Made by a program: the position numbers and the translations under genes
Assembly: GCA_016927325.1 (NCBI GenBank)
Contig: JAFGMY010000058.1
Span: 1 to 35,693, forward strand
Length of the DNA: 35,693 bases
Source: Actinomycetota bacterium
GTDB taxonomy: Bacteria; Actinomycetota; Geothermincolia; Fen-727; Anoxymicrobiaceae
Direction of reading: 5' to 3'
In this document: positions 13,070-15,896 of the stretch, piece after piece
How positions within the stretch are numbered: position 1 is the stretch's first letter
Layout: the number at the start of each line of letters is the position of its first letter
The notes under the pieces: model-generated
Seen by the model: only the letters and a program-made list of their open reading frames with translations
What the model was told of the DNA's origin: nothing
Database searches by the model: none

Positions 13070-14233
13070 TTATCTCTCACCCCTTCTCTCCTCGAGGGTA
13101 TTCAAGCCGCCGTCACGGGGAAGCTCTTCCACCGGTCTTGAAACAGTAAACGCCCCTTCAAGTATCCGCTGCTTCAGTATACCGGCGATCTCACGGCTCA
13201 TTTTAAAACTTGAAAGCGGCGCGGTCTTGACCATTCTACCTTTTAATTCCACTTTTCCGCTACGAAGTTCCCGGTAATTCACCTTCTTGAGCCTGTTGCG
13301 CGCGCGTGAGGGTTCACTGTAGTCGAATATATAAGTCTCTATATCCTCATCTGATATCCCGGTACGCACAGCCATGTCCTCATCCAGGATTGGTATAGGT
13401 ATCCCTATTCCGACATATAGAGTTACGCCGTACCTGTGAAACCTCGCGCCCCGGATGAATTTTGAATCCATCGTCTTCATATCGCCGATAAGGGCAAGTG
13501 AACCCGAAGGCCCGACCGGGACTCCATTATCGTTTCTTTCGACTTCAGGATTGTGCTGGGTACCCGCCCACGCGACATACCCGGTCCCTCCGCCGAGAAA
13601 TATCCTGGTGCCGATTCCTATCGTGCGATAATCGGGATCGTTCAGTAACGGATTCAACTGCCCGGCACTGCAGTAAGTAATGTTTCCATAGTTTGGAAGA
13701 AGTATTCCCATATAGGTATAAATCGTCTTTTCCGAACTGTTGGTCGCGCTGGCATAGTTCTCATACGCGTTTCTGGGATTGAACAGATAAGCCTGGTTAA
13801 GATCGCTTAAAGCCACTTCCGTCTCTATCTCTTTTCTGGGATAACAGTCAGTCGCAATCGCGGTACTCTTGAGCTTTATCCTCTTGCCCTCTATCAGATC
13901 CTGAATAATGTGGCCTCCACCATAAGCAAGGCCTTCACTGTCGGATATCGCGGCGGCACCGATATACGCATCCACAGCGGCCACGTCCGCGCACACAGGT
14001 ACATCGTTCAACCATAAACGGTGCATCTTTATCGGAGGATCGCTGTGACCGAAATTGACAAAAGCACCCGACGAGCACATGGGACCGAAAGTCCCTGTTG
14101 TGACAACATCGACTTTCCCGGCCGCCTCCCCGGCTCCTTCGCTTTTCACCAGTTCGGTCATTTCTTCCGCGGTCAACACCACGGCCCGGCCTTTTTTAAT
14201 CTTCTCGTTGATTTCTTCATAACTCTTTGCCAC
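13070..14233 (-). CDS. DUF39 homocysteine-biosynthesis protein (L-aspartate semialdehyde sulfurtransferase, HcyS/MA1821 family)
   Basis: Start placed at GTG 14233 after GGAGGTGAGACT (VAKSYEEINEKIKKGRAVVLTAEEM). Motifs TTGTFGPMCSSGAFVNFGHSDPPIKM, GGGHIIQDLIEGK, TDCYPRKEI, FLGGGTGYVAWAGTQHNPEV. Confidence 0.87.
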   Translation of the reverse strand: MAKSYEEINEKIKKGRAVVLTAEEMTELVKSEGAGEAAGKVDVVTTGTFGPMCSSGAFVNFGHSDPPIKMHRLWLNDVPVCADVAAVDAYIGAAAISDSEGLAYGGGHIIQDLIEGKRIKLKSTAIATDCYPRKEIETEVALSDLNQAYLFNPRNAYENYASATNSSEKTIYTYMGILLPNYGNITYCSAGQLNPLLNDPDYRTIGIGTRIFLGGGTGYVAWAGTQHNPEVERNDNGVPVGPSGSLALIGDMKTMDSKFIRGARFHRYGVTLYVGIGIPIPILDEDMAVRTGISDEDIETYIFDYSEPSRARNRLKKVNYRELRSGKVELKGRMVKTAPLSSFKMSREIAGILKQRILEGAFTVSRPVEELPRDGGLNTLEERRGER

Positions 14234-14273
14234 AGTCTCACCTCCTTGAAAAGACCTCGTCTTTTCATAGAAA

Positions 14274-14307
14274 ATAAAAAACCTCCGTCCACGTGGGGAC
14301 GAAAGTT
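14274..14307 (-). terminator. Intrinsic terminator of the T-box
   Basis: RNA AACUUUCGUCC-CCACGU-GGACGGAGGUU followed by UUUUU; 11-bp stem counting G-U pairs. Confidence 0.92.
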
Positions 14308-14570
14308 CTATCTTCCGTGGTACCACCCCACTTCACGCCGGCCTCACAGCCTGCGCCTTGTCGGGTACGCCCTGATCCGGGATATACCCTAGTCCTGTAA
14401 CGGGGACTTCCGTCCGGCATTACCGACCGCCTGTACATACCTGATCTTCATTCAGGCGGTTTTCCTCCGGAAGCTCGGGGGCCATGTTCGAGAACACCTG
14501 CGGCGCCGGTTCCCACTGTCCCGGCTCACTTCAGCCCGGCCCTTTCCCTACTCATCCCCTTCGTAGCCTT
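14274..14570 (-). promoter_or_regulatory. T-box riboswitch, tRNA-Met specific (AUG specifier), transcription attenuation, upstream of hcyS
   Basis: RNA reads GGGGATGAGTAGGG...AAGTGAGCCGGGacaGTGGGAACCGGC...GGTGTTCTCGAAC[ATG]GCCCCCGAGC (stem I with AUG specifier at 14485-14483), then T-box motif GGGTGGTACCACGG (14328-14315), then terminator. Confidence 0.93.
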
Positions 14571-14612
14571 TGGGGTAATCACAGCTTATAAGCTGTTCTA
14601 CTACTGAAACTG

Positions 14613-14641
14613 AACCTACACTTTTCAATGCATGCTGTCAA
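14613..14641 (-). promoter_or_regulatory. Predicted sigma70-type promoter of the T-box/hcyS transcript
   Basis: TTGACA (14641-14636), 17-bp spacer, TAGGTT (14618-14613) on the minus strand, just upstream of the leader. Confidence 0.5.
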
Positions 14642-14843: not shown

Positions 14844-15896
14844 GTGAAGGAAACATCATCAAAAAAGATCGGCCTGGCTTTCAGCGGCGGGCTGGACAGT
14901 ACCGCGGCCGGTATTATCCTCAAGAATGAAGGGCATGAGATAATCGCGGTTACGATGTCGATAGAGACCGATGAAAACGAGATAATAATTGAACGTGCCT
15001 CACGAATCGCGCGCAAGGCGGGTTTCGTGCACAAAATCATCGACCTTAACGCCGAGTTCAAAAGAGAGGTAATCTCCCCATTTATAAAAGCCTACGAGAG
15101 CGGTATGACCCCAAACCCCTGTATCCGCTGTAACCGGGATATCAAGTTCGGTGCCCTCATGAGAAAGACGCTCGATTTCGGATGCGACCTCTTTGCAACC
15201 GGCCACTATGTAAGGTTGCTCGGAAACAGCAGCAAAAAGCAGTGCCTGAAACGTGGAATAGACAGCAGGAAGGATCAAAGCTATATGCTGTGGACGCTCG
15301 GCCAGGCGGTCCTTGGGAATTCGATCTTTCCTCTTGGTAACACCACCAAGGAGAATATACGCAGGCTGGTCCGCGAGACCGGCATCGAAGACAATGCTCC
15401 CGAAAGCCAGGACATCTGTTTTCTTGCCGGCAGGAGCTACCGTTCTCTGTTCGACGGCCGTGCTGAAGGCACCAACACGGGTCCGGTCTACACAGTGGAC
15501 GGAACCGTTATTGGAAAACACAAAGGGCTCACATACTACACGATAGGACAGAGAAAGGGACTCGATCTCGGGACCCATGAGGCCATGTTTGTGGTAAAGA
15601 TCGACCCTGAAGACAACTCGATTACCGTTGGCGGCAGAGAAGACCTGAAGTGCGTGGGGTTTACAGTGTCCGAGCTGAACTTCATTGAAGGGTTGCCGCC
15701 CGCCCGGAGTTTCAAATGTGAGGTCGAAACACGGTACAGGGGCCCGCTGGCCTGTGCAGATGTCAAACTAATAAACAGCTCGGAAGGTATTGTGAGTTAC
15801 AGTGAACCGGGCTTCCGGGGAGCCCCCGGGCAATCGGCAGTTTTCTACCGGGGTGATACCCTCCTGGGTGGAGGAGTCATCAACCGGGAACAGTAG
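14844..15896 (+). CDS. mnmA: tRNA-specific 2-thiouridylase (MnmA/TrmU family)
   Basis: 350 aa, GTG start; SGGLDSTAAG PP-loop, PNPCIRCNRDIKFGALM, FATGHYVRL, RKDQSYMLW, SQDICFLAG, GLTYYTIGQRKGL. Confidence 0.9.
   Translation: MKETSSKKIGLAFSGGLDSTAAGIILKNEGHEIIAVTMSIETDENEIIIERASRIARKAGFVHKIIDLNAEFKREVISPFIKAYESGMTPNPCIRCNRDIKFGALMRKTLDFGCDLFATGHYVRLLGNSSKKQCLKRGIDSRKDQSYMLWTLGQAVLGNSIFPLGNTTKENIRRLVRETGIEDNAPESQDICFLAGRSYRSLFDGRAEGTNTGPVYTVDGTVIGKHKGLTYYTIGQRKGLDLGTHEAMFVVKIDPEDNSITVGGREDLKCVGFTVSELNFIEGLPPARSFKCEVETRYRGPLACADVKLINSSEGIVSYSEPGFRGAPGQSAVFYRGDTLLGGGVINREQ

Follow-up and report, generated by a model that had tools for sequence, protein, structure and literature searches.

A methionine-specific class I T-box leader predicted to control a DUF39/NIL-ferredoxin homocysteine operon in an uncultured actinobacterial lineage

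Does the long leader of a DUF39 operon in an uncultured actinobacterium sense a tRNA, and if so, which one and by what mechanism? The leader lies within the window, that is the whole stretch of 35,693 nt of DNA analysed here. It measures ~370 nt and extends on the minus strand from a promoter-like site (14641-14613) to the GTG start codon of HcyBio (14233). The initial annotation, made from the sequence, had proposed a tRNA-Met T-box attenuator upstream of a homocysteine operon. Protein family hits confirmed the target named there, HcyBio (DUF39) followed by a NIL-domain ferredoxin, whose gene begins with the first base behind the HcyBio stop codon. Desulfovibrio vulgaris requires DUF39, NIL/ferredoxin and COG2122 for its homoserine-independent synthesis of homocysteine (PMC5764234). 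By analogy with these published relatives, both proteins of the window would have an enzymatic role in this route. No full-length Cys/Met PLP enzyme of the MetB/MetC/MetY type was found in the window genome (82% complete). A gene for an mnmA-type tRNA thiouridylase (14844-15896, plus strand) is oriented divergently from the T-box operon.

The leader was searched with cmscan at permissive settings. Minus-strand positions 14573..14292 matched the T-box family RF00230 over the full length of the model (1-219 of 219, 86 bits, E=3.3e-19), and this covariance-model alignment bears out the proposed T-box type. The score is below the gathering cut-off of 93 bits, which is a curators' cut-off and not a structural feature; hence a default Rfam scan misses the T-box. 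Five leaders ahead of HcyBio in other families score above this value (101-121 bits). Among the matches listed, the T-box is the single one in the window genome (G000), located directly ahead of HcyBio/DUF39 and NIL-ferredoxin, and the other genomes of the class with a match have likewise just one each. Stem I is of full length and comprises the K-turn, the distal double-loop motif and a specifier loop with a codon fitting the downstream gene. Stem I has its K-turn strand, GCTACGA, at its base. The K-turn had initially been assigned to GATGAGTAG, which is not a K-turn: its AGTA makes up the 5' side of the specifier loop. Apart from this label, the original description of the leader holds. The parts of leader and operon are listed in Table 1.

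Table 1. Features of the T-box leader and the downstream operon in the window
Feature	Position	Strand	Evidence
Candidate sigma-70-type promoter, TTGACA-N17-TAGGTT	14613..14641	-	read in sequence
T-box leader, stem I to antiterminator	14292..14573	-	RF00230, 86 bits
Stem I base with K-turn strand (GGCTACGAAGGGG)	14556..14568	-	aligned to model consensus gCgaUGAaagGGA
Specifier-loop 5' strand GAGTAGGG (AGUA S-turn)	14546..14553	-	aligned to model AGUA
Specifier codon AUG, within GAACATGGCCCC (14489-14478)	14483..14485	-	covariance-model alignment; invariance in 27 HcyBio leaders
Stem II region, extra hairpin and degenerate S-turn (GGTAATG; relatives GAGTAGAA)	14410..14476	-	alignment with relatives
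Stem IIA/B pseudoknot, ACGG/CCGT and AGTCC/GGACT	14391..14413	-	read in sequence
Stem III hairpin GGGTATATCCCGGATCAGGGCGTACCC	14363..14389	-	
T-box sequence GGGUGGUACCACGG = GGGTGGTACCACGG	14315..14328	-	UGGU capable of pairing with the tRNA end ACCA
Antiterminator: helix A1 (6 bp), 7-nt bulge UGGUACC, helix A2 (7 bp)	14293..14331	-	-15.2 kcal/mol
Intrinsic terminator, 11 bp and TTTTTTATTTT	14271..14307	-	-13.8 kcal/mol, covariation
Perfect 8-bp hairpin GAAAAGAC-GAG-GTCTTTTC, adjoining the Shine-Dalgarno sequence upstream	14248..14266	-	read in sequence
Shine-Dalgarno sequence AAGGAGG of HcyBio	14241..14247	-	read in sequence
HcyBio / DUF39, 387 aa, GTG start	13070..14233	-	PF01837, E=1e-151
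NIL-domain ferredoxin, 135 aa	12662..13069	-	PF09383, E=2.5e-19; 4Fe-4S domains

The folding energy of the whole leader barely exceeded that of shuffled sequences (z=-1.6), and the support for the element therefore comes from homology and covariation, not from folding energy. Covariation was scored over 13 canonical HcyBio leaders, namely that of the window, those of G002, G003 and G005 from the same family, and L062, L065, L068, L073, L076, L077, L084, L108 and L114. In the antiterminator 91% of cells were paired and 14 showed changes on both sides (shuffles 5.9, 0/500 as high); in the terminator 82% were paired and 11 showed such changes (shuffles 5.1, 0/500 as high). Both hairpins have bases in common, the terminator starting at 14307 with its U-run ending at 14271, and are mutually exclusive. 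The mechanism class suggested earlier, transcription termination by an 11-bp hairpin with a U-run, was supported, as this covarying terminator occupies the canonical place. In the pseudoknot, loop and partner change together (GCCC/GGGC in L108, TCCAG/CTGGA in L114). Helix A1 of the window immediately precedes UGGU. The leaders of G005 and G002 have the same candidate promoter upstream as that of the window, spacing included.

The covariance model sets GAA-C-AUG-G of the window on its consensus GAA-a-uuc-a, which identifies AUG, and not a non-Met codon, as the specifier. AUG was invariant in 27/27 HcyBio leaders read (13 canonical, 14 divergent); this count leaves out the T-box loci before HcyBio in G049 and G207. 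The neighbouring bases vary. AUG is preceded by C or U and followed by G or U in the canonical leaders, and the 14 divergent leaders, all from families f5-f7, read GAA-G-AUG-G, so that C, U or G precedes AUG over the whole set. The same specifier core was found in a pattern scan of GTDB genomes ahead of metG in Desulfofundulus, Desulfovirgula and other Bacillota. Applied to other T-boxes of the phylum, the positional reading rule gave UUC/Phe for pheS (identified by eye), GUC/Val for ilvD and CUC/Leu for leuA. The Met specificity claimed initially is thus corroborated by the model alignment, by conservation of T-box and AUG ahead of orthologous DUF39 genes in relatives and other families, by metG and by the rule checked on these three genes. 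Both outcomes that the initial annotation had set as refuting its proposal, a non-Met codon at the specifier and a lack of T-box conservation ahead of orthologous DUF39 genes, were looked for and not seen. AUG is the codon for the amino acid made from the operon's product. This agreement of specifier and gene function, to which the initial annotation had given weight, holds, and it is stronger across genomes than within the window genome.

Judged by sequence comparison, the window carries a class I T-box with Met specificity, a known type of switch on an apparently unreported target. We put the probability that a class I (transcription-attenuating), tRNA-Met-specific T-box controls the HcyBio-NIL/ferredoxin operon at about 0.9. 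The sequence itself shows the homology, the specifier, the covarying alternative hairpins and the gene order, and from these tRNA binding, charge sensing and termination are inferred. Stem I would read the CAU anticodon via the AUG specifier. With uncharged tRNA-Met bound, the ACCA end would pair with UGGU, the antiterminator would hold, and RNA polymerase would read through, allowing conversion of aspartate semialdehyde and sulfide to homocysteine and further to methionine. With charged tRNA-Met, the terminator would form. Against this model stand the score below the gathering cut-off, the degenerate-looking S-turn and extra hairpin of stem II, the lack of a T-box match in 5 of the 9 members of the window family and, in a genome 82% complete, an elongator-type tRNA-Met gene that was not recovered. 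A literature search for a T-box or riboswitch paired with DUF39 gave nothing relevant, which does not prove that no report exists; the use of a Met T-box on the DUF39 homocysteine pathway seems unreported.

The last of these objections concerns the nature of the ligand. The CAU tRNAs found belong to the initiator type, to a GGGCCC-type that is probably tRNA-Ile2, and to an elongator TTCATAC-type present in G002, G005, G013, G015, G023 and G026. Those recovered from the window genome look like initiator and tRNA-Ile2. Complete CAU tRNAs of the window genome and its relatives end in ACCA, with the exception of one odd gene in G005. This gene, L136 (G005:C364), resembles tRNA-Thr, has the anticodon CAU and lacks an encoded CCA; it is either an assembly error or an odd tRNA. 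The UGGU-ACCA pairing put forward initially is possible; it adds little specificity, since almost all the CAU tRNAs found would match UGGU, and it cannot pick initiator or elongator because CAU tRNAs of both types end in ACCA. In G003 (L028/L124) the bulge reads UGGC instead of UGGU, and an elongator tRNA was not found in that genome. The ligand might be initiator tRNA-fMet and not elongator tRNA-Met, so that the switch would sense initiation capacity as in S. aureus, where the T-box of the met leader has a strong affinity for uncharged initiator tRNA and a weak one for the elongator (PMC3771891). The CAU anticodon and ACCA end common to both tRNAs would permit this, and the CAU tRNAs recovered from the window genome are in line with it. 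No feature of the leader, however, points to an initiator preference, and we regard this reading as rather doubtful.

HcyBio was found in 84/397 sampled genomes of the phylum, and comparison of coordinates with the T-box searches placed a T-box within ~520 nt upstream in at least 28 of the 84. In L065 (G217) an additional open reading frame lies between T-box and HcyBio. In families f2-f4, which belong to the same order, HcyBio is not preceded by a T-box. Among the five members of the window family without a match, two carry a relic, two have T-box-free upstream regions, and in one HcyBio is cut by the contig end. The relics, in G007 (L009, with CCTTTCGTCCCCGTGGTGGAAGGCTTG) and G006 (L004), consist of the 3' end of a T-box just before HcyBio, the rest of the leader being gone; L004 is cut by a contig end. 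G006 and G007 have several full-length Cys/Met PLP enzymes, a sample too small to claim a link with T-box loss. These relics, together with the sub-gathering score and the degenerate S-turn of the window leader, would fit a T-box in decay that has no current function. Such a state is very unlikely for the window element, in which promoter, specifier, UGGU, pseudoknot, both alternative hairpins and Shine-Dalgarno sequence are all intact, with compensatory changes.

Control at translation by a class II T-box masking the Shine-Dalgarno sequence, as on ileS in many Actinobacteria, would agree with most described actinobacterial T-boxes (PMC1262725, PMC7583486) and with the small hairpin (14266-14248) directly preceding the Shine-Dalgarno sequence. 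That sequence lies beyond the terminator and outside the switch, though, and the full-length stem I with its distal double-loop motif and the covarying terminator and U-run at the canonical place after the T-box leave this reading scarcely credible. Other frames have been considered for some T-boxes (TBDB, PMC7778990), and a specifier shifted to His CAU or Trp UGG would make the element answer to a different amino acid; the chance of this is negligible, as the model aligns AUG, metG is preceded by the same core, and the -1 (CAU/UAU/GAU) and +1 (UGG/UGU) codons are not conserved among leaders of the same gene, owing to the variable flanking bases, while AUG is constant.

The window element as a class I Met T-box joins a known kind; the novel part is the form of the Ca. 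Solincola leaders (f7), which lies outside the window. Ca. Geothermincola and Ca. Solincola both fall within families f5-f7. Over the 14 leaders of f5-f7, stem I, AUG specifier, stem II and pseudoknot are near-invariant, and a short antiterminator hairpin and a terminator persist and covary. The f7 leaders have stem I with the AUG specifier and the stem IIA/B pseudoknot and score 60-83 bits with RF00230. The canonical GGGUGGUACC is absent from f5-f7 leaders; f5 and f6 keep AGUGGU. In f7, UGGN was found at the antiterminator bulge in none of the 12 leaders (L013-L015, L018-L021, L023-L027). The scan gave two UGG matches, located in the A2 loop or stem and not in the bulge, and the 12 bulges are purine-rich, e.g. 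GAGAGA, or read UGAU. UGAU, present in some Solincola leaders, was considered as a weak T-box and rejected, as both it and UGGN are missing at this place in the family's other genera.

A short reading frame encoding VVxLVWxMxxLPR or a variant, with one Met codon, lies just before HcyBio, at a distance of 60-112 nt, in all 14 leaders of f5-f7 (L013-L016, L018-L027) and also in G014 (L085), where the T-box is absent. It is tandemly duplicated in G030 (L019). In several f5-f7 genomes its final codons (CCTCCCG) are complementary to the Shine-Dalgarno region of HcyBio (CGGGAGG). The frame is a possible second, translation-based control. AAGGUGGUGGUG before the Solincola HcyBio was considered as a displaced T-box and rejected, since it lies in frame within the small reading frame (K-V-V-V) and past the terminator. 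We tentatively suggest, as a possibility and not as the expected outcome, that the Solincola T-box still binds tRNA-Met by stem I and pseudoknot but has ceased to read the 3' end of this tRNA, charge sensing having passed elsewhere, perhaps to the small reading frame. If true, the Solincola leader would be a T-box without its T-box, at odds with a 2020 review according to which every known T-box invariably has UGGN at the edge of the bulge (PMC7583486).

The window leader has its closest counterparts in the met/metG leaders of Firmicutes (class I, RF00230), with which it has in common the AUG stem I, the IIA/B pseudoknot, the UGGN bulge and the choice between antiterminator and terminator; the metG leaders of Desulfofundulus also have the core GAA[C/G]AUGGCCC. 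It differs from them in its DUF39/NIL homocysteine target, its uncultured actinobacterial host, a higher GC content and the extra stem II hairpin. The metICFE-mdh T-box of S. aureus (PMC3771891) likewise targets methionine biosynthesis by transcription termination, but controls the classical homoserine route and prefers initiator tRNA, whereas the window T-box is located on the DUF39/NIL route. The actinobacterial ileS T-box (class II; PMC1262725) belongs to the same phylum and has the GAA-NNN specifier context, a likeness already pointed out in the initial annotation. It is translational with a usually shortened stem I, in contrast to the terminator, long stem I and AUG of the window.

The window element shows that Met T-boxes of the transcription type occur in deep-branching Actinomycetota; an early survey there had reported no T-boxes other than translational ones on ileS (PMC1262725). 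Ahead of HcyBio, the relatives form a series from an intact T-box through loss of the UGGN bulge to complete loss, and the role of this bulge can therefore be tested. In an uncultured lineage, an independent regulatory signal links methionine supply with the DUF39/NIL homocysteine route, known from methanogens and sulfate reducers.
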